47,272 nucleotides of DNA from contig MHFT01000104.1 in assembly GCA_001804315.1 (NCBI GenBank), positions 1 to 47,272 on the forward strand. The letters run 5' to 3'. Shown here in pieces: positions 6,686 through 25,079 of this stretch. The position numbers and the translations under genes are program-made. The stretch comes from Omnitrophica bacterium RIFCSPLOWO2_12_FULL_50_11. GTDB lineage: Bacteria; Omnitrophota; Omnitrophia; Omnitrophales; Danuiimicrobiaceae. Under the pieces are notes generated by a model that did not search any database, was not told where the DNA came from, and was given only the letters and a program-made list of their open reading frames with translations. Positions within the stretch are counted from its first letter, which is position 1. Each line of letters opens with the position of its first letter.

Positions 6686-8080
6686 TCACACACTAATAAG
6701 GGTTTGAACGTAGAAAAACTCGGCCGCGTCATGAACGCCCGTGTCTTTGACGAAAGGGCCCGCGTGAAAGTGAGAATAGCCGATTAAAAACCCAATGTGC
6801 TTAGTCACCTCCCACCTGGCCAGCAGATCCAATTCTTGACCTACAGTCGTACTCGCGCCTGATCGGGCGGGACGGATGACATTCTGCCCTGCACCAAACC
6901 AGGCACTGCGATTTGTATCCAAGAAAAACCAATGATAATCACAACTCAATTTAATCTTTCTGTGCGGCTTCAAGTCTGTCCCTATTGTTACATCGTTCAT
7001 ATTCCTGAGACTGGCAAAATCCATATAGCCATAGAAAAAGTGATTGGTCGGAAACAAATTGTCAAAATTTTTAAAGTCCCCATCTCGCGGATCATCATCT
7101 CCCGAACCATGATTATATTCGAAGTGAAATCTTGGTTCCCACGGCAGGACCACAAAGGTATAACCAACTTCATTGTGCCAAGCCCACGCTTTGATGTCAT
7201 CGTGCGAGCGCGATCCAAACTGCCACGCCCACTCAATTCCGTAGTCAAAATTCCACTTCTTCCCTTTGAACCGGTTTCCAGCCGTATACTCTTTGAGCTG
7301 CCCAAACGCTCCCGCTTTTTCCCCCACAATTTCATTATTCCGGTTGTGCCGGATGAAAAGAAACGTGTCAAAAACATGATCAAGAAGGGGTCTCAAACTT
7401 GTATAAACGCCGTATAAATTGTCCTCATGCGCTCCTGAGTCTGCTCGATTGCGCCTCACACGAGTGACTTGGCTGAACCAAGCATCCGCTTGAAGCCAAG
7501 GAACAGGATCATAAATTACCTTGGCGGCATCAAAAACCCGCCCGACGTTCGACCAACCAAAAGGGCCAACGAACCGTTGGTCCCCATAGCTTAATTCTTG
7601 TCGTCCTGCTTTAAGGGTCAGAGGAACCTTCTTCCACGGACTTTTCAGCTCCCCATAAAGCTGGCGGAGATCCATCCGATCAACGAAAGCAGTGGTGCGA
7701 TTAAGACTGCTGTCCGCAAAACTTTCCGCATCTTGACCTTCAATAAAAACTCTGAAATATGGGTCGAAAGCAAGATCGGCATTCAGGCGATTCCTAAAAA
7801 GATGGACAGCATCATCCTCATTCGCAGCGTCATTAAAATTGAAATCGTCACGAAGTTCAAGACGGTAACGGAACTCGCCTCCGAATTTAACTCTCACTCG
7901 ATCTCCATGCAGCGGAACCGGTCTCGTCAGACCATCCAGGAAGCCATCTGATACGCTTAACATCTGAGAAGCAGGGTGAAGTGTTCGTGTAGGCTCTTCA
8001 GCAAAACTTGAACCTGCTGAAAGGGCGAAAACAACAATCACTAAAACGGCCCTCCTTATATTTTGAACGAGGGAGTCCAT
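6686..8080 (-). CDS. Alginate-export (AlgE-like) family outer-membrane porin
   Basis: 464 residues with a signal peptide at 1-27 ending in SSFAEE, then a protein full of alternating aromatic and polar strands, as expected for a single-chain outer-membrane beta-barrel. Segments such as FGGEFRYRLELRDDFNF, AGRQELSYGDQRFVG and FGWSNVGRVFDAAKV are typical of the Alginate_exp (PF13372) family. The family name comes from alginate export, but relatives near respiratory gene clusters are likely general anion porins. It is the last gene of the long molybdoenzyme/Moco operon; its ATG overlaps the end of mobA by 25 nt and has AGAGGA nine bases upstream. I infer that it lets a small anionic substrate or product of the periplasmic enzyme cross the outer membrane. 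Confidence 0.8.
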   Translation of the reverse strand: MDSLVQNIRRAVLVIVVFALSAGSSFAEEPTRTLHPASQMLSVSDGFLDGLTRPVPLHGDRVRVKFGGEFRYRLELRDDFNFNDAANEDDAVHLFRNRLNADLAFDPYFRVFIEGQDAESFADSSLNRTTAFVDRMDLRQLYGELKSPWKKVPLTLKAGRQELSYGDQRFVGPFGWSNVGRVFDAAKVIYDPVPWLQADAWFSQVTRVRRNRADSGAHEDNLYGVYTSLRPLLDHVFDTFLFIRHNRNNEIVGEKAGAFGQLKEYTAGNRFKGKKWNFDYGIEWAWQFGSRSHDDIKAWAWHNEVGYTFVVLPWEPRFHFEYNHGSGDDDPRDGDFKNFDNLFPTNHFFYGYMDFASLRNMNDVTIGTDLKPHRKIKLSCDYHWFFLDTNRSAWFGAGQNVIRPARSGASTTVGQELDLLARWEVTKHIGFLIGYSHFHAGPFVKDTGVHDAAEFFYVQTLISV

Positions 8081-8646
8081 GATTTCATGTCCTCTTTGGT
8101 ATTGATATTAAAGAAAAAGTTGGAACTAAATTCGGACCGAATCAGCTTCTTTTCGGGCACCGTCGATAGAAAATCATGCATCGAAAATTTATTCTTTTCA
8201 ATCGCCTCTTTTTTTATGGAACCAGACAGCCGAGATTCATACAGGCCGGGAAACGGCTGCGTTTGATTCCCACTCGTGCAAAACAATGTGACCAGACTTT
8301 GCCGGTCATGCTGATTCAAAAGCGTCTCAAGCACAAATGTCGTGAGCGCGGGCATATCGCAAGTCAGAACCAAGAGTGAAGTGTTTGGAAAAGTGAGACA
8401 CGCCGTGTACAAACCGCCAATGGGCCCACAGTTTGGAATCAGATCTTTTTCGATGCGGCAATTTAAAAATGAGTGTTCCCGCTCGCGGCTGGTCATCACA
8501 ACCGGCTCAAGATTGAGTTTCCTTAAAAGTTTGACCGCTCGCTCAAGAAGGGTCACCCCGTCGAGGCGAGCCAGTGCCTTATCCTGCCCAAAACGGGTGC
8601 TTTTTCCACCCGCAAGCACAATTCCTTTAATGCCGTCGCGCCTCAT
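8056..8646 (-). CDS. mobA: Molybdenum cofactor guanylyltransferase
   Basis: 196 residues, the usual MobA length. It transfers GMP from GTP to molybdopterin to form the MGD cofactor of DMSO-reductase-family enzymes. The N-terminal nucleotide-binding loop LAGGKSTRFGQDKA is at residues 11-24. GPIGGLYTA and the metal-binding LTCDMPAL follow, and there is a late FFNINTKEDM (family form: NINTPEDL). It overlaps moaE upstream by 20 nt and the porin downstream by 25 nt, so it is translationally coupled. Its presence fits a bis-MGD enzyme such as the NxrA-like protein in the same operon. Confidence 0.92.
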   Translation of the reverse strand: MRRDGIKGIVLAGGKSTRFGQDKALARLDGVTLLERAVKLLRKLNLEPVVMTSREREHSFLNCRIEKDLIPNCGPIGGLYTACLTFPNTSLLVLTCDMPALTTFVLETLLNQHDRQSLVTLFCTSGNQTQPFPGLYESRLSGSIKKEAIEKNKFSMHDFLSTVPEKKLIRSEFSSNFFFNINTKEDMKSWTPSFKI

Positions 8647-9070
8647 GAATCAACTCCGCTGGATCATCGCAACGCATCCACTCCGAAGTTCCATCTGCAT
8701 AAACTTCCTTTTTCCAAATGGGTACGCGCTCTTTAATTTGATCGACCACGGCTCTCACCGCGGCGAAAGCCTCATTCCGATGAGGGGCAGTGACCGTAAT
8801 GGCCACCGCTACCTCGCCCACCTCAAGCCATCCGACACGATGCAGGACCCTAATCTCGTGTGCTTCGTACCGCCCTTTAACTTCATCGATGATGGAACGA
8901 ATTGCCTTCTCTGCCATCGAAGAGTAAGAGTCATAATAAAGTCCTTTGACGCGACATTCTTCCTCGTGACTACGCACGACGCCGATGAACGAAGCGACGG
9001 CTCCGCAGGATTCATCAGGCTGTCGGCTTAAGAAATCGGAAGCAGAAATAGGTTGATCGGTAAGATACAT
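8627..9070 (-). CDS. moaE: Molybdopterin synthase catalytic subunit
   Basis: About 147 residues, normal for MoaE. With MoaD it converts cyclic pyranopterin monophosphate to molybdopterin by adding two sulfurs. Family signatures are GAVASFIGVVR near the start, LYYDSYSSMAEKAI, the VLHRVGWLEVGE strand, TAPHRNEAFAA and the catalytic-lysine region VPIWKKE. The ORF can be opened at TTG 9073, but ATG 9070 with GGTGG seven bases upstream is better. It follows the moaD stop by only three bases, so the two synthase subunits are made together. Confidence 0.95.
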   Translation of the reverse strand: MYLTDQPISASDFLSRQPDESCGAVASFIGVVRSHEEECRVKGLYYDSYSSMAEKAIRSIIDEVKGRYEAHEIRVLHRVGWLEVGEVAVAITVTAPHRNEAFAAVRAVVDQIKERVPIWKKEVYADGTSEWMRCDDPAELIHEARRH

Positions 9071-9073
9071 CAA

Positions 9074-9351: not shown

Positions 9352-10572
9352 CTATCCGCCTGCCAGAAACGGCAGAACATGCGTCACCACCTTCTCACCC
9401 TTTTTTACCCCTCTGCCATTCGGAGGAATCAGGACTAAAGCATTGGTGTCACACAAGGAAGAGATCATGTGAGAACCCTGATGAGGCAAAGGGGTTACTG
9501 CTCTTCCATTTTGCGAGGGTTGAACCTTCGCCTTCAAAAAAACAAGTTTCTGGCGATCAGATGCAACCGCTTTTGAAAGCTTTTGCTTTTCCGTGCGTAG
9601 ACCAGGATTCACAAATCCAGACATGGAGCGAATTGCTAAATAAACGTATTCATAAAAACAGGTGAACACACTCGCAGGATTCCCTGGGAGGCCAAAGACG
9701 ATGACGTTTCTCCTCTTCCCAAAATAAATGGGTTTGCCTGGTTTTTGATTCACCTTCCAAAAAATTTGACGAACCCCTAATCCCCGTAGAATGTCTTTCA
9801 CATAGTCATAATCACCAACTGAAATTCCCCCGATGAGAATCACAAGATCGCTTGAACGAAGCGCCTTGCGGACGATTTTCCTCAAAATTCCTGGTCTGTC
9901 CTGAACGGTCTTAACCAAGAAAGGCTCTACCCCAAGCAATCTGAGCGCAGAAGAAATCATCACGGAATTGCTGTCATAAATTTTCCCACGCGTTAATTTC
10001 GTCCCCGCCTGAATCAATTCACTCCCTGTCGCAATCACCGAAACTCTTGGGCGTGCAAAAACTTGTACCTTTCCTTTTCCGAGTGACGCGAGGATCGCCG
10101 CGACCGCTGGATGAATGACGGTGCCGTTAAAGACCACTTGGGCTCCTTTTTTTAATTCCTCACCTCGCAAACGAATATGCGCACCGGGTGCCACCCGTTT
10201 TGTGATAACCAGATCCTTGCCTTCTACTGTAGCTTCCTCTTTCAGAAGGACGGCATTGCCCCCGCGAGGAATCAATGCGCCTGTCATAATTCTGTAGGCC
10301 TTTTTGGGAGGTAAGAATTTAGGAGGATCCCCTGCTTTAAGAGCGCCCGCGATTTTAAGAAAAATTGGATTCTTCTTCGAAGCAGAATTTATATCCCGCG
10401 ATCTCAACACATACCCATCCATTGCTGAATGATCATATTGAGGCAGCGGAAAAGGCGTCTTAACGTCCTCCGCAATGACATAACCTAAAGAATCCGCTAC
10501 CCGAATCGTCTGTCTCTTTGGCCCTGGGGTATTTTTTTCGATCAATCGTTGCGCTTGTTGAAAGGAAATCAC
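9352..10572 (-). CDS. moeA: Molybdopterin molybdenumtransferase
   Basis: 406 residues, a full MoeA. It inserts molybdate into adenylylated molybdopterin. Visible signatures are YDHSAMDGYVL near residue 50, RIMTGALIPRGG, VIATGSEL, KIYDSNSVM, ILIGGISVGDYDYVKD and VFGLPGNPAS, followed by a complete C-terminal domain ending in LAGG. The start is GTG, overlapping the stop of the upstream permease gene (GTGA), so it is translationally coupled. The 30-nt gap to moaD contains a short inverted repeat (CTGCCGTTT / AAACGGCAG). Confidence 0.94.
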   Translation of the reverse strand: MISFQQAQRLIEKNTPGPKRQTIRVADSLGYVIAEDVKTPFPLPQYDHSAMDGYVLRSRDINSASKKNPIFLKIAGALKAGDPPKFLPPKKAYRIMTGALIPRGGNAVLLKEEATVEGKDLVITKRVAPGAHIRLRGEELKKGAQVVFNGTVIHPAVAAILASLGKGKVQVFARPRVSVIATGSELIQAGTKLTRGKIYDSNSVMISSALRLLGVEPFLVKTVQDRPGILRKIVRKALRSSDLVILIGGISVGDYDYVKDILRGLGVRQIFWKVNQKPGKPIYFGKRRNVIVFGLPGNPASVFTCFYEYVYLAIRSMSGFVNPGLRTEKQKLSKAVASDRQKLVFLKAKVQPSQNGRAVTPLPHQGSHMISSLCDTNALVLIPPNGRGVKKGEKVVTHVLPFLAGG

Positions 10573-11315
10573 AAGAGACCCAAAAGTAATCTCACAGAAA
10601 CATATAAAATGAGAACCGCGAACATTTGCTGGAGCCGTATTTTTGGCAAATGATACGCCCCGAGTCGAGAACCAATTTGCCCTCCAATGAAAACAGCCAA
10701 TCCCAGGGGCAGCATCGAACCCACCTCCACTGTCCCTTTGTGAATTTGTCCAAAGAGACCCGCAAGCGAATTCGCCGCAATAAATAAACTAGCCGCGGCG
10801 GCTGCTTCCTTTACGTTCACCCATTTCATCAGAAGCAGTAAGGGACTTAAAAAAATTCCGCCGCCGATTCCAACAAGTCCTGAAAGAAATCCAATGAAGC
10901 CACCTAAAGGTAAGCCAATCGTCCACGCTTCTTTCGCTGAGACCTGCCTTGAAACCTCAAACAACTTTTCAGGGAGCAGCATTCTTAAAGCAACAACAAA
11001 AAGCGAAAGTCCTAAAAGAAGTGAGAACACATCCTTGCCGATCGACGTCCGTCCGCCAAGATACGCCATCGGAATGGATAAAACAAGATAGGGCAGCACC
11101 CGTTCAAACTTAAGGTACCCTCCGCGGTAAAAGTGCCAAAGCCCGCCTCCTGTCACAATGATATTACAAATCAATGCGATCGGAGGAATGTTTTGATACG
11201 GAAGACCCGCGAGCGCAAGAAACGCAAGATAGGACGATCCTCCGCCAAATCCCATCATGGAATAAATGAGCGCAATCGCAAAGAAGACAGGCAGCAGCCA
11301 AAATGGAATTGTCAT
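10569..11315 (-). CDS. TSUP (TauE/SafE) family membrane anion permease
   Basis: 248 residues with about eight hydrophobic segments and two internal copies of the family repeat: YSMMGFGGGSSYLAFLAL at residues 19-36 and FLSGLVGIGGGIFLSPLLL near 138-156. TSUP proteins move sulfite, sulfonates, sulfur compounds or other small organic anions across the inner membrane. It sits between moaCB and moeA in the operon, overlaps moeA by four bases, and has AGGTG nine bases before its ATG. A role in moving the enzyme's substrate or product is inference; the family does not predict nitrite transport specifically. Confidence 0.85.
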   Translation of the reverse strand: MTIPFWLLPVFFAIALIYSMMGFGGGSSYLAFLALAGLPYQNIPPIALICNIIVTGGGLWHFYRGGYLKFERVLPYLVLSIPMAYLGGRTSIGKDVFSLLLGLSLFVVALRMLLPEKLFEVSRQVSAKEAWTIGLPLGGFIGFLSGLVGIGGGIFLSPLLLLMKWVNVKEAAAAASLFIAANSLAGLFGQIHKGTVEVGSMLPLGLAVFIGGQIGSRLGAYHLPKIRLQQMFAVLILYVSVRLLLGLL

Positions 11316-11340: not shown

Positions 11341-11452
11341 GTCATCCTGAGCCCTTCGCCGTCATCCTGAGCGGAGCAGCGGCTCAGGACAGGCTCCGCG
11401 AAGGATCTCACGTTCCGAGATCCTTCGGCCTACGGCCTCAGGATGACGTCTT
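11341..11452. repeat. Dispersed GTCATCCTGAG-type repeat (copy 1)
   Basis: The 110-bp spacer between the permease and moaCB starts with GTCATCCTGAGCCCTTCGCC and ends with the complementary CCTCAGGATGACG. Inside are further inverted copies around GAAGGATCT and GAGATCCTTCG. This is a palindromic dispersed element also present at 13577-13702 and 16077-16203. Confidence 0.8.
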
Positions 11453-11460
11453 GTTAATTC

Positions 11461-12369
11461 TTAATGTCCCAATCCATCCATCATCTGATACGCGTGCAGG
11501 ATGGACGGAAACATCGCGTCCAGTGACTCACGAACGCCACGAGATGAACCCGGAAGGTTAACGATCAACGTATTTCCTTTTTGAGCGGCAACTCCCCGTG
11601 AGAGCATCGCGTAGGGTGTCCGTCTCTGCCCATAGGCGCGGCAGGCTTCTGTAATGCCTGGAATTTCGCGGTCCATAATTTCCTGAGTTGCTTCAACGGT
11701 TACATCACGTGGTCCGAGACCGGTTCCCCCCGTAGTCAAAATCAAAAGCACACCTCTTTCACAAAGCTCCTTGAGTTTGGCTGCGATCACGTGTTTGTCG
11801 TCCGGCAATACGTCAACGCTGGGATGAATCCCGTACGCCTCAAACCTTTCCTTTATCATTTTTCCCGATTGATCCTCGCGCGTGCCTCGAAATGTGCCAT
11901 CCGAGGTAACGATGACAGCGGCAGAAAAATTCTTTGGAATCCACTCCTTCTCGCCGGATTTTCCACCTTTTTTCTTGATCAATTTCGTAGAAACGATCTC
12001 CATCCCCTCGTCCACGGGTTTCAACATATCATAAATCGTGAGCGCCGCTACCGAGGCGGCCGTTAAAGCTTCCATTTCAATTCCGGTTTTCCAAACCGTT
12101 TCAACGGAAGAGGTGATCACCACACGATCCGCTTGAACGTCAAAGTTAATTTCAACGGAATCAATTGGAATCGGATGACAATAAGGAATGAGCTCACTCG
12201 TCTTCTTGGCCGCCATCACCCCCGCTGCTTTCGCGATTGCTAATACATCTTTCTTAGGAAGATCATTTGCTTTTAAGCGTTCCAACGTTTCTGGTTTCAC
12301 GAGGACGGTACTCGCTGCGACTGCCTTCCTCAATGTGTCTGTTTTATCCGTAACCGATTTCACGGTCAT
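11461..12369 (-). CDS. moaCB: Bifunctional MoaC-MogA/MoaB fusion for molybdopterin biosynthesis
   Basis: 302 residues with two domains. Residues 1-140 are MoaC-like (LIPYCHPIPI, WKTGIEMEALTAAS, IYDMLKPVD), the partner of MoaA in making cyclic pyranopterin monophosphate. Residues 155-302 are a MogA/MoaB-type molybdopterin adenylyltransferase (TSDGTFRGTREDQSG, LTTGGTGLGPRDVTVEAT, NLPGSSRGVRES). The same domain order is known as a bifunctional protein in several bacteria. A MoaC with a short N-terminus is typical of these fusions. It follows moaA by ten bases and has GGAGGG directly before the ATG. No separate moaC, mogA or moaB lies nearby, so the fusion supplies both steps. Confidence 0.92.
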   Translation of the reverse strand: MTVKSVTDKTDTLRKAVAASTVLVKPETLERLKANDLPKKDVLAIAKAAGVMAAKKTSELIPYCHPIPIDSVEINFDVQADRVVITSSVETVWKTGIEMEALTAASVAALTIYDMLKPVDEGMEIVSTKLIKKKGGKSGEKEWIPKNFSAAVIVTSDGTFRGTREDQSGKMIKERFEAYGIHPSVDVLPDDKHVIAAKLKELCERGVLLILTTGGTGLGPRDVTVEATQEIMDREIPGITEACRAYGQRRTPYAMLSRGVAAQKGNTLIVNLPGSSRGVRESLDAMFPSILHAYQMMDGLGH

Positions 12370-12379: not shown

Positions 12380-13372
12380 TTATCCGCCCACTTGGCACAT
12401 ATAAGCAACAGCTTCGTCTTCCACGGAACCCGTAAACTGATGTCCCTTTGGTTTCAACTGGGCTGCCTCACGAATCAACTGGACAAGTTCCGCTTTCGAT
12501 TTTCCTCCGCGGAGCGGCGTTCTCAAATCGAACGTCTCTTCCCCATGAAGACAAAGTTTGAGCGTTCCATCTACACGCAGGCGGATGCGGTTGCACTCGG
12601 AACAAAACGGATGAGAAATGGAACTGATGAAGCCAATTTTTCCGACGCCATGGGCCGGCCGATAAACTTCTGATACATCTCCTGGAAGCCGCGGCTCTGG
12701 CAGGAGAACTGCCCATTTTGCGATTTCATTCTTCACCCAGTCATTCGAAACGAAGTATTTTTTCTTTGCGACGAAAGAATTATGAGTCGGCATGAGTTCG
12801 ATAAAGCGCACTTCCACAGGATGCTCCATGGCGAAAGCGACGAAGCTTTCAATTTCATCGTCGTTGATTTCCTTCATGATGACCGCATTGATTTTAACCG
12901 GATGAAATCCAACCTGAATTGCTTTTTCGATTCCCGTTACCACCCGATGGTGCACATCCCAACCGGCAATCTGTCGGAATTTTGCGGAGCTGAACGTGTC
13001 CAAACTGATATTGATCCTCTTAAGCCCTGCCTCGAAAAGGTCTTCTGCCTGGTCGGCAAGGAAAATTCCGTTGGTCGAAAGAGAAAGGTCTTTAATTCCT
13101 GGGATTTGACTTAAAGCGTTGACCAAAGAAGAAAGATTTCGACGCGCAAGCGGTTCCCCGCCCGTCAGCCGAATCTTATCAATACCCAAGTCCACGAAAC
13201 ATTCACTCAGGCGGAGAATCTCTTCATAACTCAAAATGTCTGTGCGACAGGTGAATGGAAATCCGCCAGGCGGGATGCAATAGCAGCAACGCAAATTGCA
13301 GCGATCCGTTACGGAAATTCTCAGGTAGGAAATTCCGCGGCCGAAAGAATCGACGAAGTCGTCCTGAATCAC
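12380..13372 (-). CDS. moaA: GTP 3',8-cyclase, radical SAM enzyme
   Basis: 330 residues with the start chosen here. MoaA performs the first step of molybdopterin synthesis. Its SAM-binding [4Fe-4S] motif is C25-x3-C29-x2-C32 (CNLRCCYC). The second cluster near the C-terminus is CSECNRIRLRVDGTLKLC, and the protein ends in Gly-Gly, needed for activity. TGGEPLARR and LSLSTNG are also present. The ORF can be extended ten codons to GTG 13402, but GTG 13372 has a perfect AGGAG seven bases upstream, and the extension runs into the end of a palindromic repeat. Confidence 0.94.
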   Translation of the reverse strand: MIQDDFVDSFGRGISYLRISVTDRCNLRCCYCIPPGGFPFTCRTDILSYEEILRLSECFVDLGIDKIRLTGGEPLARRNLSSLVNALSQIPGIKDLSLSTNGIFLADQAEDLFEAGLKRINISLDTFSSAKFRQIAGWDVHHRVVTGIEKAIQVGFHPVKINAVIMKEINDDEIESFVAFAMEHPVEVRFIELMPTHNSFVAKKKYFVSNDWVKNEIAKWAVLLPEPRLPGDVSEVYRPAHGVGKIGFISSISHPFCSECNRIRLRVDGTLKLCLHGEETFDLRTPLRGGKSKAELVQLIREAAQLKPKGHQFTGSVEDEAVAYMCQVGG

Positions 13373-13394
13373 TTCTGCTCTCCTTTCCAATTCT

Positions 13395-13515
13395 CCCACC
13401 ACCTGCTGGAGCGCCTACGCCACCAAAAACGGCGGATCCGCCCCGCTGTTTGGCGGAGAAGCCACCTCGGCTTTGAGCCGAGATGCCGCTCTGCAGCAAA
13501 ACACGAGGTGGTGGG
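13395..13515. repeat. CCCACCACCT...AGGTGGTGGG palindromic element (copy upstream of moaA)
   Basis: A 121-bp element bounded by CCCACCACCT and AGGTGGTGGG, with an internal stem around CCTCGGCTTTGAGCCGAG. Similar ends bound elements at 21172-21268, 30454-30509 and, less perfectly, 38696-38771. It lies between tatA and moaA and touches the extended moaA ORF. It is GC-rich and contains no gene. Confidence 0.65.
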
Positions 13516-13745: not shown

Positions 13746-13901
13746 TCAACTATCGTGCTTGGTAAGCTCCGAAAGTGATTTTTTAAATTCCTTGATTCCT
13801 TGCCCTAGCCCCTTCGCTATTTCTGGTATTCTCTTAGCACCAAATAAGAGAACCACAACAAGGAAAATAAGCAGGAGCTCCATAGGACCCGGCATACTCA
13901 T
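13746..13901 (-). CDS. tatA: TatA/TatE-like twin-arginine translocase subunit
   Basis: 51 residues: an N-terminal membrane helix ([19 protein letters not shown]) followed by the classic [20 protein letters not shown] amphipathic helix and a short charged tail. TatA oligomers form the pore that exports folded, cofactor-loaded proteins. Its ATG overlaps the stop of the ferredoxin gene (ATGA) and has GGAGG seven bases upstream, so the start is secure. An operon-borne TatA next to a Tat-signal molybdoenzyme and its chaperone suggests dedicated export. No tatC is visible in the window. Confidence 0.92.
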
Positions 13902-14506
13902 AGCACTTCCTCCGCTTGAGCCGTCGTTTTGGACTCGCTCGACTTCGATAAAACCATCTCAATAGCAGGAAAATTATTAACGGTTCGGCAGGCGGCTTCA
14001 CACATGGCACAACCGTCACAAGCAAAAGAATGAACGACCGGCTTTTGATCGCACATTTCTATTGCCCGATCCCGCAAAGGACACGCAAGATAACACAGTT
14101 GACAATTAGCTCCTCCCCACGCAAGGCAGCGAGAAATGTCAAGACGTGCGATCCGCGGCCCTGTATCCAAGCAATCGTCAATGCGAGGGTACGAACCTAA
14201 CGTAGGGGCGCCATTTTCCGCCATACAGCGCGGCGGATGCGCCGAGATTTTTTCCGCCAAAAGACGCGGCGGACCCGCCACGTTTTCTGGCGGGGGCGGA
14301 ATGGCGCCCGACGAGACGGGCGCGATGAATCGCGCCCCTACGTCGTATGGCTTGCTGTCTCGTCCGCCAAAGGACGGACCCGCCTTCTTTGTGGCGGGCA
14401 ATGACGTCGCTGTTAGGATTTGCCGAAACCCATCAAGCAACCGCTGAGGAAAGCTTTTTACAAACTCTCGCCGATTCATGTGATTTACCTTTTGTGCAAC
14501 GCTCAT
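13898..14506 (-). CDS. NapF-like ferredoxin with an in-frame repeat insertion
   Basis: 202 residues from ATG 14506, or 193 from ATG 14479, where AAGGT lies seven bases upstream and the protein begins [10 protein letters not shown]. The C-terminal half has two cysteine groups ([17 protein letters not shown] and [13 protein letters not shown]) that can hold two [4Fe-4S] clusters. The N-terminus has a Tat-like RR but no hydrophobic core behind it. Residues about 55-105 ([14 protein letters not shown] to NGAPTLG) are the translation of a dispersed GC-rich repeat read in frame. It overlaps its neighbours on both sides by ATGA junctions. I infer an accessory electron-transfer or maturation role for the NxrA-like enzyme. 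Confidence 0.75.
14201..14349. repeat. Dispersed GTAGGGGCGCG-type repeat inside the ferredoxin gene
   Basis: The element begins CGTAGGGGCGCC and ends CGCGCCCCTACG, giving perfect inverted ends, with internal CGCCAAAAGACGCGGCGGAC-type stems. A related copy is at 32211-32310 between gltX and the IOR gene. Here it is translated as part of the ferredoxin ORF without breaking the frame. Confidence 0.75.
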
Positions 14507-15333
14507 ACAGAAACGTTCACCCTTGAACGATAAAGTTCAAAACACTGGCGGCAAATTCCTCTCGATCGCTCCCAGCCTGGATGATCCCTTTCAATTTTCC
14601 GGAAAACGGCTGCCTCTCTCCCCTGCCCATCAGAAATCTGCTCGTAAGAATGAAATCTGCACAGAGGGCACTCAAATCCGCCTTGAGCCGACATTTCCGA
14701 AGCCCGCCCATTTTTTGCGAGCTCAAGAAGCTGTCCCTGAGTCCAGTGCCTCCGCTTTCCAATTTCTTGAAACGCTTTTGAGGCGGGGAGATTTTGTACG
14801 AGGCGGCGATCGATGTAAAGGTCCCAGAGAAAACGGAACCGGTCGCGGATCAAATTCTCTTCCGCGGGAGAGTCTCCTCCTAAAGGAGTCTTTGGGGAAT
14901 ACTCGAAGCCGGGATCGAGCATGTCCGAAATCCTTAGGAGTTCATGCCGCACGAAAGCATGAAGAAAGGGACGCTCCAGAACGCGCTTAGTCTGGAGGCT
15001 TAAAAACACAGTTTTTAAATCACCCTCCCAATAAAGTTCAGATCCTTCTTCTTTTTTTCCAAAAGCGCGTCTGATCAGAACCATCGTGTTAAGATCTAAA
15101 CGTGTAAACTCCGCGAGGAGTTCCTCAAAAAGAGCGCGAAGACCCAGCGTTACAAAAAAACTCGCAGCCAATTCCTGAAAAGCTTCCTCGCTCCTCGCGC
15201 CCTCATAAATTGAATTTCTCTCGGTATGATAAGCGCTCGCGATCGAACGGTCTCCCGCGGCTTCAAGAGACCTCACGGTCCAGAACACTGCTTCTTCCAC
15301 AAAAGAAGGTTCAAATTCTAAGCGATACGTCAC
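14503..15333 (-). CDS. Unknown protein with a C-terminal zinc-ribbon-like cysteine set
   Basis: 276 residues from GTG 15333, which overlaps the chaperone stop (GTGA) and has GGAG five bases upstream; the longer ORF to 15381 has no ribosome site. The protein is largely helical and charged. Near the C-terminus CPLCRFHSYEQ and ICRQCFELYR form a CxxC...CxxC pair that could bind zinc. I do not recognise the family. Its position between the TorD-type chaperone and the ferredoxin, with overlaps on both sides, suggests a role in maturation of the molybdoenzyme. It could instead be a second, degenerate chaperone, since helical content and size are similar. Confidence 0.7.
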   Translation of the reverse strand: MTYRLEFEPSFVEEAVFWTVRSLEAAGDRSIASAYHTERNSIYEGARSEEAFQELAASFFVTLGLRALFEELLAEFTRLDLNTMVLIRRAFGKKEEGSELYWEGDLKTVFLSLQTKRVLERPFLHAFVRHELLRISDMLDPGFEYSPKTPLGGDSPAEENLIRDRFRFLWDLYIDRRLVQNLPASKAFQEIGKRRHWTQGQLLELAKNGRASEMSAQGGFECPLCRFHSYEQISDGQGREAAVFRKIERDHPGWERSRGICRQCFELYRSRVNVSV

Positions 15334-16259
15334 GAAAACTCCATTGAAGCAACCGGCCGGGCAAACTCGCAAGAGACACAAGCGGCCTCAATTTTCTCTT
15401 GGACCGCACGAAGCGGAAGATCCTGGGAGCCCGGTTTGATGTTTTGGGCAAGACAATCCTGAACGACAAATTCAAAGGCGAAATCAGCAATTCCTTTCAA
15501 AAGTCCTTTCGAATATTTGGACACGCGAAGGCTAAAAGCGGGAAACCAGTAACTTAAATGCTCCGAGAGGAAATGGCGGCTCGCCTCCATCGAAATTTGA
15601 GCTTTTTCTTCTTTGCCGTCCTCCAAAGCAAGTATTTCTTTATAGAGAAGGAAGTACATGAATTCTAATTCAACCGAGGCATGATCGGCCCGCTCATGAG
15701 AACGGTTTGAAAGCTTAAGCCCGAAGGCGCTGTAGAACGCTGTGATATCCGCCAATTGGTGAGGCTCGCGGTGGGTATGCTCCTCACCATATTCCAATTC
15801 ATAAGCTGAGGCGACTCCTTTTACCGTATGGCCTAAAAGTTTTTCGTACTCCTCCGCCCATTCTTTGGGCGTTGTGTTTTTTAACCTCCCGAGAAGCGCG
15901 TCCAAAAGCCCTCTTAATCTGTCTCGGTTGTGGAAAGGAAGTGTATCGACTGCCGCTTGCCAGATGCCCCTCGTCTTATCGACGAGAGAAAGGTCTTGAG
16001 CAAGATCAGGACGTCTGAAGAAGAACGAAAGCGCCTGATAGAGAATGCTTCGTGACAGGAGTACGGCTACGTCAACGTCATTCTGAGCGCAGCGAAGAAT
16101 CTCGAAACACGGAGATCCTTCGGCCCGGAGCCTGTCCTGAGCCAGAGATCCTTCGCCCCTTCGGGGCTCAGGATGACTGGCGAAGGAGGCCTCCGGATGA
16201 CGGGAACTCCTGCCGGCGTTCCCGTCAAATTGAGTTTTGGTGAATGTTCGGTCTGACAT
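15330..16259 (-). CDS. TorD/DmsD-family chaperone with a repeat-derived N-terminal insertion
   Basis: 309 residues, about 50-80 longer than usual for the family. From about residue 66 it is a typical redox-enzyme maturation chaperone: LLSRSILYQALSFFFRRPD, EEYEKLLGH and the signature RADHASVELEFMYFLLYKE. Such chaperones hold the apo-molybdoenzyme and its Tat signal until cofactor is inserted. Residues about 20-64 are the in-frame translation of a GTCATCCTGAG-type intergenic repeat. I see no alternative start after the repeat, so the insert should be translated. The ATG overlaps the end of nxrB by 35 nt, with GGAAG nine bases upstream. Confidence 0.82.
   Translation of the reverse strand: MSDRTFTKTQFDGNAGRSSRHPEASFASHPEPRRGEGSLAQDRLRAEGSPCFEILRCAQNDVDVAVLLSRSILYQALSFFFRRPDLAQDLSLVDKTRGIWQAAVDTLPFHNRDRLRGLLDALLGRLKNTTPKEWAEEYEKLLGHTVKGVASAYELEYGEEHTHREPHQLADITAFYSAFGLKLSNRSHERADHASVELEFMYFLLYKEILALEDGKEEKAQISMEASRHFLSEHLSYWFPAFSLRVSKYSKGLLKGIADFAFEFVVQDCLAQNIKPGSQDLPLRAVQEKIEAACVSCEFARPVASMEFS
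16077..16203. repeat. Dispersed GTCATCCTGAG-type repeat inside the chaperone gene (copy 3)
   Basis: Starts GTCATTCTGAGCGCAGCG, contains GGAGATCCTTCGGC and GAGATCCTTCGCCCC, and ends with CTCAGGATGACTGG plus a partial second copy to GGATGACGG. It encodes the extra N-terminal part of the TorD-type protein in frame. Confidence 0.8.
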
Positions 16260-17463
16260 GAAAAGGTTCTTCCACTTGGGTTCGAATCACTTCTGTTCCT
16301 AGGTCATCATAGCCGATCACGGTGTCGTTATAAAGCGTAAAAGGCTTGCCGTGAATCTCGGTTTCAAACACTTTTGGGCCTTCCTTGATTTCATAGCGGA
16401 AGATCACACGGGTCGTTTTTCTAAAAAGTTGAAGCACTGCTAAAAGTTCCCGTTCCGGCACCATGTAGGTCTCAATGGCATGATCCACTCCCGGACCAAA
16501 CATCTGCTTCAAATAAGCACGCGGAACCCAACGCGGAGGGATGTAATAGCCGTTTGGCTCTGTCCCAAATTGCGGATAAAGAGGAAGGGCTACTTTCGCA
16601 ATTTTTACAAGATAATAAATAGGATGGTAACGATCTTCCGCCCACCCGCCGTCCTTTCCAATCTTGACTAAGCCCTGAAGACGAATCTGCCCAATACATT
16701 CGACCATGCAGCGGGTCTCCATCGGTCGTCCCCCTGTTTCCGGATCCCTTCCTTCAAGCCGCGGATAGCAGGCAATGCATTTTTCCATAATGCGGGTGGT
16801 CGGCCGGTACATTGTCTTTTTATAAGGGCAGCCTTCCATACATTTCCGGTAGCCGCGGCAGCGTTCCTGATCCACAAGGACAACGCCATCTTCAGGCCGC
16901 TTGTAAATCGCGTTACGCGGACAGGCGGCGAGACAACCGGGGTAGGTGCAGTGATTGCAAATTCGGGCGAGATAAAAAAACCAAGTCCTGTGTTCTGGCA
17001 GCTTCACTCCCTCTTTGTCATAAGCATCGGGCACGCCTTTTCTACTCAGAGCGGTATCTTCGTAAATATTCGGGAAGCGCCACTCTTCATCGGTTGGAAG
17101 ATAGCCGAGAACGCGCTGCGGTTCTTCGCCGATATGTTTTTGGGCTGCCTCAAAAATCGTTTTTCCTTCAAAGGTCTTTCCATTCCACTTCTGTCCGCCT
17201 GGATTTGTTTCTTCCAGCATATTCAACAATTTGACATCCCAGAATTGGGGATAGCCTCCGTAGGGCTTGGTTTCGACATTGTTCCACCACATGTACTCCT
17301 GACCTTTTGAAAAGGTCCACGTGGACTTACACGCAAAGGTACACGTTTGACAGGCAATGCAGCGATTCAAATTAAACACAAAAGCAAATTGCCTCTGGGG
17401 ATGATGCTCCGCATGGGGATATTCCATCCTTCGATGAATCTGCCAGTTATAGACTTGTGCCAT
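16225..17463 (-). CDS. nxrB: NxrB-like iron-sulfur beta subunit of a type II DMSO-reductase-family enzyme
   Basis: 412 residues. It starts with VYNWQIHRRMEYPHAEHHPQ and contains GQEYMWWNNVETKPYGGYP, which I recognise from nitrite oxidoreductase beta subunits of the Nitrospira type. Four cysteine groups would hold four Fe-S clusters: C35-x2-C38-x2-C41-x3-C45, CNHCTYPGCLAACP, CRGYRKCMEGCP and a late CIACYPR...CMVEC. The C-terminal half (PLYPQFGTEPNGYYIPPRW, PERELLAVLQLF) is also characteristic. It carries electrons between the Mo subunit and the haem subunit and lacks its own signal, so it is probably carried through Tat with NxrA. It follows the 95-residue gene with a one-base overlap. The substrate direction (nitrite oxidation or nitrate reduction) cannot be read from sequence; the symbol gives the clade. 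Confidence 0.88.
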   Translation of the reverse strand: MAQVYNWQIHRRMEYPHAEHHPQRQFAFVFNLNRCIACQTCTFACKSTWTFSKGQEYMWWNNVETKPYGGYPQFWDVKLLNMLEETNPGGQKWNGKTFEGKTIFEAAQKHIGEEPQRVLGYLPTDEEWRFPNIYEDTALSRKGVPDAYDKEGVKLPEHRTWFFYLARICNHCTYPGCLAACPRNAIYKRPEDGVVLVDQERCRGYRKCMEGCPYKKTMYRPTTRIMEKCIACYPRLEGRDPETGGRPMETRCMVECIGQIRLQGLVKIGKDGGWAEDRYHPIYYLVKIAKVALPLYPQFGTEPNGYYIPPRWVPRAYLKQMFGPGVDHAIETYMVPERELLAVLQLFRKTTRVIFRYEIKEGPKVFETEIHGKPFTLYNDTVIGYDDLGTEVIRTQVEEPFHVRPNIHQNSI

Positions 17464-17750
17464 TAAATTCTCCCCTCATCTGGGCGCCACATCCTGATGG
17501 CGTCACCAATCACCGAGCGAATGAACTCATCTCCTTTTTGCTTCCAAGCAAGATAAGGACCCTGATAAAATGGATTCCGAAAGACGGCGAAAATTTTTTC
17601 CTCATCCCAGCCTTCACGAACAAATTCTTCGGCAAAGCAAAGGGTCATGTCACGAAGCGCTGCTTCGCTTTGACCTCGCAACTGAACACCAATAAATTCA
17701 ATGGGGTCTTCTGGATCAAATTCGCTCTTTGGCATTTGCTTACTGAACAA
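17463..17750 (-). CDS. Small conserved-looking unknown protein between the alpha and beta subunit genes
   Basis: 95 residues, soluble and acidic, with ESEFDP-like charged start and FRNPFYQGPYLAWKQKGDEF in the middle. It has no cysteine pairs suited to cluster binding, no signal peptide and no membrane segment. It overlaps the 3' end of nxrA by 11 nt and nxrB by one base, so it is made with the enzyme. I do not recognise the family. A private assembly factor or small accessory subunit is the natural guess from position. Confidence 0.7.
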   Translation of the reverse strand: MFSKQMPKSEFDPEDPIEFIGVQLRGQSEAALRDMTLCFAEEFVREGWDEEKIFAVFRNPFYQGPYLAWKQKGDEFIRSVIGDAIRMWRPDEGRI

Positions 17751-20700
17751 ATCCTCCGCTCAGATACTTTTTCATTACCTCATTCTCGCTCGCCGGTGTA
17801 AAGCCGGTGGTAGCGGGCGCCCAAATTCCTTTTCCTCCCAAGCCGCCGTCTTCAGCCTTACTCACCCGTACCAGTGTTTCTTTGGGAACCGTGTTCACGG
17901 CATGATTGTCTGCTTCACCGCCGAAGATAAACGACATAGATACCTTTGCCTTATGAAAGAGCGTATCGGTTTGGTGCATCGGCATATGCCAATTGCGCGT
18001 GACACTCTGTTGGGAACCGTAGCGGAAATTCGCTTGGTATGCGCCGCCTTCGGACAATGCCCTTTTATCCGGGCGCGTTTCATGAGCCTTCACGGTTTTC
18101 TCCGTTGCGATGTTGGTTCCATGTTTCATCATCACCGTGTTGTAAGGAAACGCGGGATTATATTTCACTCTGAGCATGAGACGCGTTACCTTGTAGAAAG
18201 GATCATCCGGTTTTGCTCCGATATAGGGGCGGTCCGCTGGATTGGCGTCCACGTAGACATAATCCCCGTCATTAATCCCAAAATCCTTCGCTGCTTGGGG
18301 ATTCATGTGAAGTTGTTGCTCGCCCACTCCGGGCGTGCGTTTATCCATCCGATAGGGATCACCGAAATTGGAATCCCAAATCTCATGCCAATCGACATTG
18401 CTCCACATAGAATGAACCCGATGCCGGCTTTTGGGTGTAAGGCAAAAAAATTGAAACCCTCGTTCCCAGAGAAAATTCTTCGTCTTCTTCACTTCGGCCC
18501 ACGGCAATTTGACGTTGCGAACGGTTCGCGCGTCCCAGTGCTCCGCCTCGAGAGGAAGTCCGTAATCATTCGGACGAACGTAAGGATTGGACGTCACAAT
18601 CACATTCGGTAGATAGGGTGTCGCTTCAGGTCCCTCACGGTGTACAATGAAGTTCTCGCCGTATTCGATCGCTTCAGAGACATCCGTATAAGCTTGGAGG
18701 CGCCCCGTTTCGGTATAGAAGGGATAATCCTCATGAATCTGTTCCCAAAAGGGGATGCGCGGATAGGTTCTAAAAAGCATCAGGGCGCCGCCTGAAGGCC
18801 CGTATTTACCAGCCATGATGTCTTCCAGTTTGTAGCCTGCTGTCGTCGTCGAAGTGTCAAGAAGCCGTTGGATATAAACCTCGCGTTTACCTTCTAAGGC
18901 AAATTTCCAGTAGTCGTAGAATCGTTGGTCGCCGGTGATCTCGCCCAGCTTCTGCGCGATGCCGGCGATAATCAGGAGGTCATCTCGGCTGTCAAAAACG
19001 GAGGGAATTCCACCTTTCCAAATCTGAAGAAAGGGGTTTGAACACGAGGCTGTCACCTCAAGCCCTTCAGACTCAACCCAGCTATTCGCGGGAAGTCCAA
19101 TGTCTGCATACTCAATGGAGGCGGTCATTTGAATATCAATGGAGACAATCATCTCCACATTCGGATTGACGTTCTTGATCATGTCGTAGACATGTTTGGC
19201 ATTGTTGATGAGATTCACATTCGTAAACACCATTGCTTTTGTAGGAGTCGGCATGTGGGTTTTGCCCGTGAACACCCTCCTTCCCTCCTTTGGCGTCTCA
19301 ACGATGAGCGGCCGATCCCCGTGATTCCAATAGGCGGGTTCCTCATCTTTGAAAAACGCTTTCACATGCACGTCCTTCCCGTGTGCGTTCGGATCGAGCA
19401 ACGGATGAAAAGGATCTTCAGCCACCCAACCTTTAAATCCGTGTCCTGTCCAAGGAGACCCCTGGAAGAGGGCGGCTTTATAATTGCCGGCCCACGTATG
19501 ACAGCCGGCACCTGGCTTTCCAATGTTCCCCGTGAGAATTAAAGGCAGATAGGCAGCGCGGTTCATTTCTGTCGCATGAAAATAGTGATTGATTCCTTCT
19601 CCTTGGTGGATCGCCGCCGGTTTAATCGTCGCGATGTCTTTGGCAAGCTGCACAATTAATTCCTTAGGGGCATGGGTCATCTCAGCAACGGTTTCGAGGT
19701 CGTAGTCCATAAGATGAATCCGGTAAAGAGAAAAGAGCGTCATCACCTCGATTTCTTTTCCATCAGTTGTTTTCACCTTGAACGTTCCGTGAAGAGCCAG
19801 CTTGATTCCTTTCTCGGCGAATCGCCTGCCAATTTCATCCCGCGTGAGGGCGACGGGTTCATTGTTCCCTTCGTCCCACGCCACAAAATCACCGAGTTTC
19901 TCATACTGCTCATCTTTCAACCCTTGATACTGATAACTTGGACCCTCTTTAGAAAGACCGTGCCGATAGTTGGGGAAAATCTCCTGAGCCCTGAGGCGTT
20001 TTAGATTATCGGTTCTGACGAGGAGCGGAAAATCGGTGAACCGGGTCACAAAATCCCGGTCATACCAATGGTTCTCGATCAGGAGGCGCGCAAGGCCTAG
20101 GAATAAAGCTGCGTCGGTAGCGGGACGAATGGGAAGCCAATAATCCGATTTCGTGGCCGGCGGACTGTACTCGGGAGTGATCGTAACAAGTTTTGCACCG
20201 CGCTCCATACATTCGATGAACCAGTGGCTGTCGGTCAGCTTATTCTCAACTAGATTTTTGCCATCTTGAATAATCAGTTTTGTGAAGCGGAGATCGTTGA
20301 AATCACAATCTGAAGCTTGGAGCCCATGAACCCATGGATGCCCCGGTGCTTGATCTCCATGCCACGTATAATTGGACCAGGCTCTGCCCGCTTTTGCTTC
20401 CTCCTCACCAACGCCCCGGATACGAGTGTCGAGCAGCGCCATCGTATTCGCAAGCCGGTACATCCCATATTTCCCAAAAACCCCTAACAGTCCCATCCCG
20501 CCTCGGAATTTCATCGTACGAATGCCTGAACCTTCCATCGGCGCGAGCATTTCCTCAGGATATCCTTCGGCGAGAAGTTTCCTTTTCCCTTCTTCACCAC
20601 TGTAGCGCTTTCCAATCGCGATCAAGGCTTTCGCAATGTACGTATTGGCCTCGTCCCACGAAATTTTTTCGAACTGATCCGTGCCGCGCGAATCGAATTT

Positions 20701-21171
20701 GTATTTCGCTTTATTCTCCGACGTCAACTCCGGAAAGCCGGCGTCCGCCCACTCGCGCCAACCCCGCCGGACAATGGGATACTTCAAGCGATACGGTCCG
20801 TAGAGCAACCGATGAAAACTAAGACCCTTCTCACATTGACGCGGATTCCAGTTCGGAGTGGCTTTGTTTCCATAAAGGTCGGCATAATTCTGGTAGTCAT
20901 ATTGGGAACCGATGCGGACCACGATCCCATTCCGCACATAAGCCTGAACGCGACAGGCATGAGTATCATTGGGAGAACACACCCAGGAAAAGGCGCGGTC
21001 GTAACGGTATTGGTCCCGGTAAATCTTTTCCCAATTCCGATTGGGATAATAAGCGAGTGGGTTTTCAATCTCTTCGACGGGCTCAAGCGCCCAAAGGGGA
21101 AGGCCTTTCGAAAGAAGGGCAAGACCCATCCCCGTCAGCCCTGAAAGTTTCAAGAATTCACGACGTGTCAT
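17740..21171 (-). CDS. nxrA: NxrA-like molybdopterin catalytic subunit with a Tat signal
   Basis: 1,143 residues from ATG 21171. The protein opens with the Tat motif RREFLKL (3-9) and a hydrophobic stretch; the longer ORF upstream only translates a palindromic repeat. The FS0 cluster motif is C65-x3-D69-x3-C73-x39-C113, with Asp in place of the second Cys, as I recall for NXR. Clade-typical segments include RTMKFRGGMGLLGVFGK, GRAWSNYTWHGDQAPGHP, KLIIQDGKNLVENK and ITPEYSPPATKSDYWLPIRP. The Asp-rich SDCDFNDLRF may supply the Mo ligand (inference). It binds bis-MGD and acts in the periplasm. The relatives I can bring to mind are Nitrospira/Nitrospina/anammox NxrA; perchlorate or other oxyanion reductases are the alternative reading. 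Confidence 0.9.
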   Translation of the reverse strand: MTRREFLKLSGLTGMGLALLSKGLPLWALEPVEEIENPLAYYPNRNWEKIYRDQYRYDRAFSWVCSPNDTHACRVQAYVRNGIVVRIGSQYDYQNYADLYGNKATPNWNPRQCEKGLSFHRLLYGPYRLKYPIVRRGWREWADAGFPELTSENKAKYKFDSRGTDQFEKISWDEANTYIAKALIAIGKRYSGEEGKRKLLAEGYPEEMLAPMEGSGIRTMKFRGGMGLLGVFGKYGMYRLANTMALLDTRIRGVGEEEAKAGRAWSNYTWHGDQAPGHPWVHGLQASDCDFNDLRFTKLIIQDGKNLVENKLTDSHWFIECMERGAKLVTITPEYSPPATKSDYWLPIRPATDAALFLGLARLLIENHWYDRDFVTRFTDFPLLVRTDNLKRLRAQEIFPNYRHGLSKEGPSYQYQGLKDEQYEKLGDFVAWDEGNNEPVALTRDEIGRRFAEKGIKLALHGTFKVKTTDGKEIEVMTLFSLYRIHLMDYDLETVAEMTHAPKELIVQLAKDIATIKPAAIHQGEGINHYFHATEMNRAAYLPLILTGNIGKPGAGCHTWAGNYKAALFQGSPWTGHGFKGWVAEDPFHPLLDPNAHGKDVHVKAFFKDEEPAYWNHGDRPLIVETPKEGRRVFTGKTHMPTPTKAMVFTNVNLINNAKHVYDMIKNVNPNVEMIVSIDIQMTASIEYADIGLPANSWVESEGLEVTASCSNPFLQIWKGGIPSVFDSRDDLLIIAGIAQKLGEITGDQRFYDYWKFALEGKREVYIQRLLDTSTTTAGYKLEDIMAGKYGPSGGALMLFRTYPRIPFWEQIHEDYPFYTETGRLQAYTDVSEAIEYGENFIVHREGPEATPYLPNVIVTSNPYVRPNDYGLPLEAEHWDARTVRNVKLPWAEVKKTKNFLWERGFQFFCLTPKSRHRVHSMWSNVDWHEIWDSNFGDPYRMDKRTPGVGEQQLHMNPQAAKDFGINDGDYVYVDANPADRPYIGAKPDDPFYKVTRLMLRVKYNPAFPYNTVMMKHGTNIATEKTVKAHETRPDKRALSEGGAYQANFRYGSQQSVTRNWHMPMHQTDTLFHKAKVSMSFIFGGEADNHAVNTVPKETLVRVSKAEDGGLGGKGIWAPATTGFTPASENEVMKKYLSGGFVQ

Positions 21172-21268
21172 CCCACCACTTGCTTGACAAGACTCCCCCT
21201 TTAAAGGCGGAGTCTTGTCTTCCTTAGGTGATCCGCCGCCCTCGGGCGGCGGCCAAGCAGGTGGTGGG
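21172..21268. repeat. CCCACCAC...GTGGTGGG palindromic element directly before nxrA
   Basis: Arms CCCACCACTTGCTTG (left) and CAAGCAGGTGGTGGG (right) match at 14 of 15 positions. Inside are two further stems, CAAGACTCCCCCTTTAAAGG / GGCGGAGTCTTGTC and CCGCCGCCCTCGGGCGGCGG. On the minus strand the element ends GTGGTGGG immediately before the ATG of nxrA, so the start region of the mRNA is highly structured. Confidence 0.75.
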
Positions 21269-21292
21269 ATCATCCCCATCGTAGCGCCCTGT

Positions 21293-22987
21293 TCATTTTT
21301 CGAGTGTCAGCTCATCCCAAATGGAAACCATCTTTTGACCATTTCGATCCTTTTCAAACCCATCCCACACGGCAAAAGCGATGTTCATGGGTTTGCCGAC
21401 TGCAAACTGCAAAGCATCTTTCTCCGATGCGTTCATAGATCGGAGGAAAACCACTCGCCAACCTTCATCCTGCCAAACGCCTTTGGCATCCGCCTTTCCA
21501 ACTTTTGGAATCTGAATCGTTAAGGAACCAAACCCTTTTGCTCGAGCTTCTTCGGCTGGCCTTCTTTTTTTAGGGTTTGAAAGTGGATTTCCCGCACCCC
21601 AACCGGTTATAAAAAGCGGATCGTGAAACTCGGTTTTCGAATCCCGCGTTTCAAAAGGACTGCCAGGCTCGTAATTCGTCTGATCCGGGTACCAATCGAT
21701 GGCCGTGTTGGGGTATGCCGTTTCAACGTCCACATGTTCGGCAACATCCTTCTGCCAAGATGCCTTCCAATGCCAAATATAAACGGGCGATGTGCTGCTC
21801 CCCATCGCAAAGAAAGGCGGATCTTCTTCCATGGAAAACTGTAACGCGGCCCCATCGGAAAAGGATTGTGGCGCTATGATCGAATCATCCTGCGCTGCAT
21901 CCCTCCAACTCAGGAGAATCGCAATCTGGGTTCCATTATGGAGTGCCCTTACCTCGATACCTTCAATCCGATCGTTTCTCCACCAAAGAGGCGTGACCGA
22001 TACAAATACGGGTTCAATGTTTGACCAGTAACCTGCCAATGGATCAACCGTCAAAGTCTCTTGTGCTCGGTGCGCCACGATTTTAACACGGCGCAGACGA
22101 GCTCGCTCTTCAGCACCCGGTTTTGGAAGTGTCCGAACGTAATGAATCAAATCCCAAATTTGCTCTTCCGTAAACGCACCGTGATAACTCGGCATCGGAG
22201 AACCGGGCAGCCCGCCGACAATCCGGCAATACAATTCTTCCGGACTCGACGCTCCTTTAAAAATTCCTGCTGTCAAATCGCGGGGTTTTAAGGGAACTCC
22301 CAAACTATCCTTCATAATTTGTCGGCCATCTCCGCGTCCCATGTTTCCATGGCAAGCAGCGCACGCCTTCACAAACAACTCACGCCCGAGCGTAAGACCC
22401 TCTTCTTTAACGGACGGTTCTTGAGAAGCCTTGATGATTGCCTCCGGATCTATTTGCGCCGTTGCCAGTTTCTTCTTTTGATCCCACAGAAGACCTTTCT
22501 CAATCCTTTCGTTTGTCATCTCGCCTTTTTCTTCACTCATACCCAGCTCGATCAAATATCGAACATAATAAACGAGACCCCAGCGATCTCTCTCATTTAG
22601 AAATTCCCACGGGGGCATGACCGAGCCTGGCATTCCGCGTGTGATCGTTTTAAATAAATCCTCATCTCTCACGGTCATGTCCGTGGTCGAAACCAGGCGA
22701 AACTCACCGCGCGTGAAATCCCTCGGTTTCGGATACAAAAGATAAGCAGCTTCGCCGTCTCCCGCTCCCAAGGCTCCGTGGCAGCTCACACAGTGCTTTT
22801 GATAGAGAGCCTCTCCCTTTGAAAAAAGCGCTTCGGTCAAAGGAGGCTTTCCCAGAAATGGGACTTGGGATTGTGCAATTGACGTCCGAGGAGACAAATC
22901 AAAAAAGAAAAACAGAATTAATATGAGGCAGGCACCAACCAGAAAAAGTTTTACCGGATCGAACTTCTTTATCGTAAGGTCATTCAT
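21293..22987 (-). CDS. Fused dihaem cytochrome c / ethylbenzene-dehydrogenase-type haem-b gamma subunit (NxrC-like)
   Basis: 564 residues with a membrane anchor or uncleaved signal at about 12-30 (LFLVGACLILILFFFF). Two class-I cytochrome c domains follow: C66-x2-C69-H70 with distal Met in GMPGSVMPPW, and C209-x2-C212-H213 with distal Met in GLPGSPMPSYHG. Residues from about 315 to the end form a domain like the haem-b gamma subunit of ethylbenzene dehydrogenase, chlorate/perchlorate reductases and NxrC (PLWWRNDRIEGIEVRALHNG, FSDGAALQFSME, GWRVVFLRSM). It is the first gene of the operon and should take electrons from NxrB through haem b to the two c haems. The fusion gives an enzyme with its own electron outlet and no NarI-type membrane subunit. 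Confidence 0.87.
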   Translation of the reverse strand: MNDLTIKKFDPVKLFLVGACLILILFFFFDLSPRTSIAQSQVPFLGKPPLTEALFSKGEALYQKHCVSCHGALGAGDGEAAYLLYPKPRDFTRGEFRLVSTTDMTVRDEDLFKTITRGMPGSVMPPWEFLNERDRWGLVYYVRYLIELGMSEEKGEMTNERIEKGLLWDQKKKLATAQIDPEAIIKASQEPSVKEEGLTLGRELFVKACAACHGNMGRGDGRQIMKDSLGVPLKPRDLTAGIFKGASSPEELYCRIVGGLPGSPMPSYHGAFTEEQIWDLIHYVRTLPKPGAEERARLRRVKIVAHRAQETLTVDPLAGYWSNIEPVFVSVTPLWWRNDRIEGIEVRALHNGTQIAILLSWRDAAQDDSIIAPQSFSDGAALQFSMEEDPPFFAMGSSTSPVYIWHWKASWQKDVAEHVDVETAYPNTAIDWYPDQTNYEPGSPFETRDSKTEFHDPLFITGWGAGNPLSNPKKRRPAEEARAKGFGSLTIQIPKVGKADAKGVWQDEGWRVVFLRSMNASEKDALQFAVGKPMNIAFAVWDGFEKDRNGQKMVSIWDELTLEK

Positions 22988-25050: not shown

Positions 25051-25079
25051 TTTTGGTCCAAAAATATGGGGGTTGACAC

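Follow-up and report, generated by a model that had tools for sequence, protein, structure and literature searches.

The closest described system to the locus considered here is the nitrite oxidoreductase (NXR) of Kuenenia stuttgartiensis, NXR-ABC (structure 7b04), in which the gamma subunit, NXR-C, ends at a single haem b ligated by Met155C and Lys305C (PMC8387239). This haem lies behind a positively charged groove that opens toward an unknown partner, and the acceptor of its electrons is not known (PMC8387239). The nxr cluster of Kuenenia also includes a diheme cytochrome, Kustd1711, whose haems have potentials of about +350 mV and an edge-to-edge distance of 12.9 angstrom (PMC11791136). A different arrangement is seen in Nitrospina gracilis and Nitrospira moscoviensis, where alt_NxrC proteins combine c-haem motifs and a gamma-like haem-b domain of the DMSO-reductase type in one periplasmic chain; these are accessory proteins, encoded beside or away from nxrAB; they have one to three c sites, and alt_NxrC_2 has a C-terminal transmembrane helix as well (PMC3578206, PMC6606698). 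A c haem and a gamma domain in one chain are therefore not new, since alt_NxrC already has both. Here, we describe an Omnitrophota nxr operon whose only gamma gene, nxrC, encodes two cytochrome c domains followed by an NXR-C-type haem-b domain, and we consider what this fused subunit would mean for the path of electrons out of the enzyme.

A gamma subunit with three predicted haems

The nxrC gene is a 564-residue open frame that fills positions 21293-22987 of the window (the whole stretch of 47,272 nucleotides analysed) exactly; it runs on the minus strand, as do all features given by position in this section, and a plus-strand reading is ruled out by stops throughout the frame. The earlier note had read this chain, without giving its strand, as two CxxCH domains with Met ligands ahead of an ethylbenzene-dehydrogenase-type haem-b domain, and Pfam, the ligands and the homologues all agree with it. 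The first cytochrome c domain spans residues 56-142 (22562..22822; E 7e-23) and the second residues 200-287 (22127..22390; E 6e-22), while the EB_dh domain covers residues 321-552 (21332..22027; E 2e-27), all three matches lying above the Pfam gathering cut-offs. Each c domain has a CxxCH motif, CVSCH at residues 66-70 (22778..22792) and CAACH at residues 209-213 (22349..22363), together with a methionine in a GSxMP context, and both elements are kept in every homologue that covers them. The predicted distal ligands are Met124 for the first c haem (22616..22618) and Met265 for the second (22193..22195), both present in all covering homologues, so that the N-terminal half has two CxxCH motifs with a distal Met each, as in class-I diheme c-type cytochromes.

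The C-terminal domain has the EB_dh fold of NXR/EBDH-type gamma subunits (PF09459) and, by alignment to 7b04_C, both ligands of the haem b, Met395 (21803..21805) corresponding to Met155C and Lys552 (21332..21334) to Lys305C. Among solved structures its best match is Kuenenia NXR-C itself (7b04_C; 114 bits, E 6e-32), and it also matches the gamma subunit of ethylbenzene dehydrogenase, EbdC (2ivf_C), a single-domain soluble subunit with the same Met/Lys ligation but no c haems and another substrate. The N-terminal part matches 6h5l_B, the diheme partner of the Kuenenia Kustc0457/0458 complex, across both of its domains. This chain and Kustd1711, the latter likened here by its description only, have two tandem class-I c domains like those of NxrC (PMC11791136) but are free-standing, whereas in NxrC the pair is fused to the gamma subunit. 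The nearest NCBIfam family is TIGR03477 (DMSO reductase type II haem-b subunit), at 113 bits against a curated cut-off of 169.85, which leaves NxrC outside that subfamily.

An AlphaFold2 model built from 13 sequences has a mean pLDDT of 71.7 and a pTM of 0.63, residues 419-473 being unreliable, and compares with the solved chains at TM-scores, by target length, of 0.69 (7b04_C), 0.77 (2ivf_C) and 0.66 (6h5l_B). Judged by sequence and model, fold and ligands of the haem-b pocket appear intact, in keeping with the gamma subunit proposed in the earlier note, which had named a C-terminal domain lacking such a pocket as an outcome that would refute it. Between the c domains and the EB_dh domain, at about residues 290-320, lies a linker some 12-30 residues long. 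At the N-terminus, a hydrophobic segment (residues 14-30; 22898..22948) could be either a cleaved signal peptide or an uncleaved anchor; anchoring is plausible, and as seven or so homologues have a lipobox at this end and others a hydrophobic segment, membrane tethering of the fused gammas seems to be general.

The nxr operon and its surroundings

In the operon, nxrC is the first gene and is followed, on the same strand, by nxrA (17740..21279), encoding the catalytic subunit with a Tat motif (TRREFLK), and nxrB (16225..17463), encoding the Fe-S subunit, assigned by Pfam and by a match of 609 bits. NxrA aligns with Kuenenia NXR-A over its full length (1834 bits; 63.7% identity over 900 residues) and keeps the Mo ligand (Asp275, here Asp309), the substrate-side residue (Asn70, here Asn104) and the FS0 ligand (Asp71, here Asp105). 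The earlier note had placed Fe-S clusters, haem b and two c haems together in one subunit; the three haems do fall in NxrC, but the Fe-S clusters sit in NxrA and NxrB. The remaining operon genes, again on the minus strand and supported by their conservation in the operon, encode a TorD-like chaperone (15330..16259; Pfam, NCBIfam) whose true start probably lies inside the open frame, a Cys-rich, zinc-finger-like protein with no Pfam match (14503..15381) and a NapG-like ferredoxin (13898..14506; NCBIfam). Repeats, interspersed or palindromic (16070-16259, 11381-11449 and 21186-21219), continue in frame into torD and nxrA at their annotated starts, and the true starts of both genes are probably downstream of the annotated ones, that of nxrA near 21171.

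Further along the minus strand lie moaA (12380..13402), a moaC-moaB/mogA fusion (11461..12369), a gene for a TauE/SafE-type anion permease (10569..11315), moeA (9352..10572), moaE (8627..9073), mobA (8056..8646) and a gene for an alginate-export-type outer-membrane porin (6686..8080), of which a 63% identical copy is found just upstream of the operon in a Desulfobacterales-labelled genome (locus L006). The region of the operon is flanked by a number of transposase genes, at 24223-27676 and 43038-44186.

The full-length kinship of NxrA, its catalytic residues, its Tat signal and the absence of NarI are together the features of a periplasmic NXR of the Nitrospira/Nitrospina/anammox type. In a tree, NxrA groups with Kuenenia NXR-A, apart from a second NXR/NAR-like copy encoded in the same genome. 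This second operon, on contig 75 (L038, 2659-8861), has NxrA and NxrB proteins 43% and 50% identical to those of the window, a simple single-haem Met/Lys gamma and a TorD, and close to it are genes for a free-standing diheme c protein and for one that is flavodiiron-like. A second enzyme of this kind counts against a firm assignment of roles to either.

Separating the core gamma from alt_NxrC look-alikes

In domain content, a diheme c part joined to a gamma-like part, NxrC resembles alt_NxrC, though not in position, being within the operon rather than accessory or away from nxrAB. The two haem-b ligands also differ: Met and Lys are both kept in 25 of 25 operonic fused gammas scored, but not in any of the 18 diheme look-alikes, whether accompanying or stand-alone, a comparison that rests on look-alikes found here, the alt_NxrC proteins of Nitrospirota and Nitrospinota themselves not being among those scored. 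One group of look-alikes, class A (the second gene of L014, L086, L087, L089, L098, L099 and L103), has lost both ligands and is split from the fused and simple NxrC proteins in the gamma-domain tree at 100/100; most class-A genes adjoin the oxidase gene COX1. A second group, class X, comes from Desulfobacterota and, in one case (L137), from the Verrucomicrobiota phylum set; its members are without the Met/Lys pair, and in six of 11 the Lys is replaced by His while Met is present. The stand-alone Desulfobacterota proteins with diheme and EB_dh parts and a Met/His pair (L129-L133, L141) point to a possible switch of haem-b ligand from Lys to His. In many Omnitrophota (among them L098, L099, L103, G059, G065, G257, G287 and G339), diheme proteins whose gamma-like domain is degenerate, without haem-b ligands in those aligned, are encoded within a few kb of an aa3-type COX1, and these are possible oxidase-side acceptors. 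On its ligands, the gamma tree and its operon position, an alt_NxrC identity was rejected for NxrC, and the ligand test offers a simple sequence rule for separating the core gamma from such look-alikes.

Spread of the operonic fusion

The nearest named relatives of NxrC are in metagenome-assembled genomes (MAGs) of Omnitrophota, at 72% identity. Matches were found in 36 of 384 Omnitrophota genomes, 17 of which have the operonic fused type, some of these 17 being counted from fragments at contig ends. The order gamma-nxrA-nxrB-torD-Cys-rich protein-NapG-like ferredoxin recurs among relatives. Outside the phylum, the fused gamma adjoins nxrA or nxrB/torD in genomes of Desulfobacterota (L126; L127, whose contig is 1.70 Mb long; and L128, where it is placed after torD), Verrucomicrobiota (L136, 278-kb contig) and the Zixibacteria phylum (L138, 2.12-Mb contig). 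The search for the same domain order that the earlier note had called for thus returned it beside nxrA in more than 20 loci, and at least four bacterial phyla share the fusion in this operon. One copy, that of L006 (also L144), nests inside an Omnitrophota family in both the NxrA and gamma trees, and may be a recent transfer or a mis-binned contig. A variant occurs at L014 (7510-8799), where the NXR gamma has one C-terminal c domain instead of two N-terminal ones, in an operon that also includes a class-A look-alike. Elsewhere (L140, 9454-11073), beside a NarGH-like pair, NarI is fused to a C-terminal diheme cytochrome with two CBB3-type c domains; here the gamma is of the membrane NarI type and the c domains are C-terminal, a parallel solution in another type of enzyme.

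Electron sinks and the direction of catalysis

NarI was not found in a search of the genome in which control genomes were positive, and it is absent from 16 of the 17 fused-type Omnitrophota. The earlier note had regarded NarI as dispensable on account of the fused haems; its absence bears this out, although periplasmic NXRs do not use NarI in any case. The gene for COX1 of an aa3 oxidase is present at a contig end, adjoined, by sequence, by haem-A synthesis genes and subunit III. Among the Omnitrophota, COX1 occurs in 15 of 17 genomes with the fused NxrC and, among the others, in 64 of 367 (Fisher p 1.5e-9, kinship ignored); the two fused-type genomes without it have the lowest completeness as well (66% and 56%).

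The same note had supposed that the fused haems would make a separate cytochrome partner needless, a stronger claim that we do not adopt: the genome encodes four other class-I c proteins (the C75 diheme, C64, C20 and C72), and the oxidase subunits near COX1 in relatives showed no c-haem motif, so that CuA must still be reached by a c haem in some way. A genome-wide count of CxxCH motifs in the DNA (91 and 120, against 39 and 47 for a reversed-pattern control) contains a large chance share and was set aside. Other possible components of electron transfer were noted. Contig 20 (L107, 4794-10616) encodes a Rieske protein, a split cytochrome b and an octahaem protein of about 950 residues, as do L092, L096, L102 and L105, and similar octahaem proteins are found near COX1 in relatives. 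Contig 72 (L108, 1-4876) encodes a membrane protein with several spans and a c haem at its C-terminus, which may be a bd-like oxidase of the type known from nitrite oxidizers, followed by two antiporter-type (NuoL/M/N-like) proteins.

Enzymes of this class are reversible, and NXR and nitrate reductase are indistinguishable by sequence alone. With COX1 present in the genome and associated with the fused type, and NarI absent, the enzyme more probably oxidizes nitrite with oxygen, nitrate reduction being the main rival direction.

Proposed mechanism and alternative readings

Taken together, these features make it likely that NxrC is the gamma subunit of a periplasmic NXR of the Nitrospira/Nitrospina/anammox type, in which haem b hands its electrons on to two c haems, mostly in nitrite oxidation. 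In such a scheme, NxrA would be exported by Tat, presumably taking NxrB with it, and NxrC by Sec, its hydrophobic segment either holding it or being cleaved. Electrons from nitrite would pass from Mo to FS0 and then through FS1-FS4 of NxrA and NxrB to the haem b (Met395/Lys552) of NxrC, where the fused class-I domains would replace the external acceptor used by Kuenenia NXR-C and hand the electrons to cytochromes or to the CuA site of the aa3 oxidase. The fused domains are natural candidates for the place of the partner at the haem-b groove. We infer haem insertion, the order b to c to c, the docking of the c domains over this groove, the direction of flow and the oxidase as end acceptor. A bolder version, in which the three-haem gamma binds at the CuA of the aa3 oxidase itself, so that the chain from nitrite to oxygen needs no soluble cytochrome, and in which Omnitrophota and other groundwater phyla harbour a large unrecognized guild of nitrite oxidizers, we regard as distinctly doubtful.

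The rival readings differ in which part of this scheme they replace. The arrangement itself could be an artefact of frameshift-joined neighbours, mis-assembly or mis-binning, a concern raised by the 107 contigs of the MAG to which the window belongs and by several transposases close by, yet the one-chain architecture recurs at the same operon position in many independent genomes, among them those with contigs 278 kb, 1.70 Mb and 2.12 Mb long; the long contigs rule out assembly artefact as the source of the architecture, and for this gene the idea is barely credible. That NxrC might be an accessory of the alt_NxrC type, acting as an oxidase- or membrane-side acceptor rather than as the core gamma, draws on the joining of c haems and a gamma-like domain in Nitrospina and Nitrospira (PMC3578206, PMC6606698) and on the Omnitrophota look-alikes encoded beside COX1. 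It is made improbable by the retention in NxrC of both haem-b ligands, which the tested look-alikes have lost or changed, by the grouping of its gamma domain with true NxrC, and by its being the sole gamma gene of its operon, when in L014, the operon with an alt-type gene, a Met/Lys gamma is encoded separately.

More weight attaches to readings that accept a core gamma but change how, or in which direction, it works. The enzyme could be mainly a nitrate reductase, electrons passing from Rieske/cytochrome b through c cytochromes to the c domains, haem b, the Fe-S clusters and Mo; the reversibility of NXR (PMC8387239), the Rieske/cytochrome b and octahaem-c locus of this genome and the close relative in the Desulfobacterales-labelled genome all speak for this, some relatives (L006, for example) belonging to groups usually thought anaerobic. 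We nevertheless hold it to be unlikely, given that NxrA sides with Kuenenia NXR-A and not with the genome's second NAR/NXR-like copy, that the fusion is strongly linked to the haem-copper oxidase, and that a high-potential Met/Lys haem b with Met-ligated c haems would fit electrons from nitrite. Alternatively, and somewhat less unlikely, the c domains may lie too far from haem b for transfer within a fixed complex, a distance the earlier note had wished to see checked, and instead act as a tethered shuttle that swings to a membrane acceptor, or as a module for membrane attachment. The length of the linker, the low-confidence loops of the model and the hydrophobic segment or lipobox at the N-terminus of homologues all speak for such a reading, while the conservation of CxxCH and Met for both c haems in all covering homologues would be needless in a purely structural part.

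Implications

No description of NXR in Omnitrophota, or of a three-haem operonic gamma, was found in the open-access literature searched, and while the fusion of c haem and gamma is already known as alt_NxrC, the operonic three-haem gamma appears to be a new arrangement. Occurring naturally, and in an operon that several phyla conserve, the fusion suggests a tandem class-I diheme cytochrome c as the acceptor for the haem b of NXR, and it offers a single polypeptide in which the step from haem b to haem c could be measured. Omnitrophota that combine nxrABC with an aa3 oxidase and no NarI are, in turn, testable candidates for nitrite oxidation.
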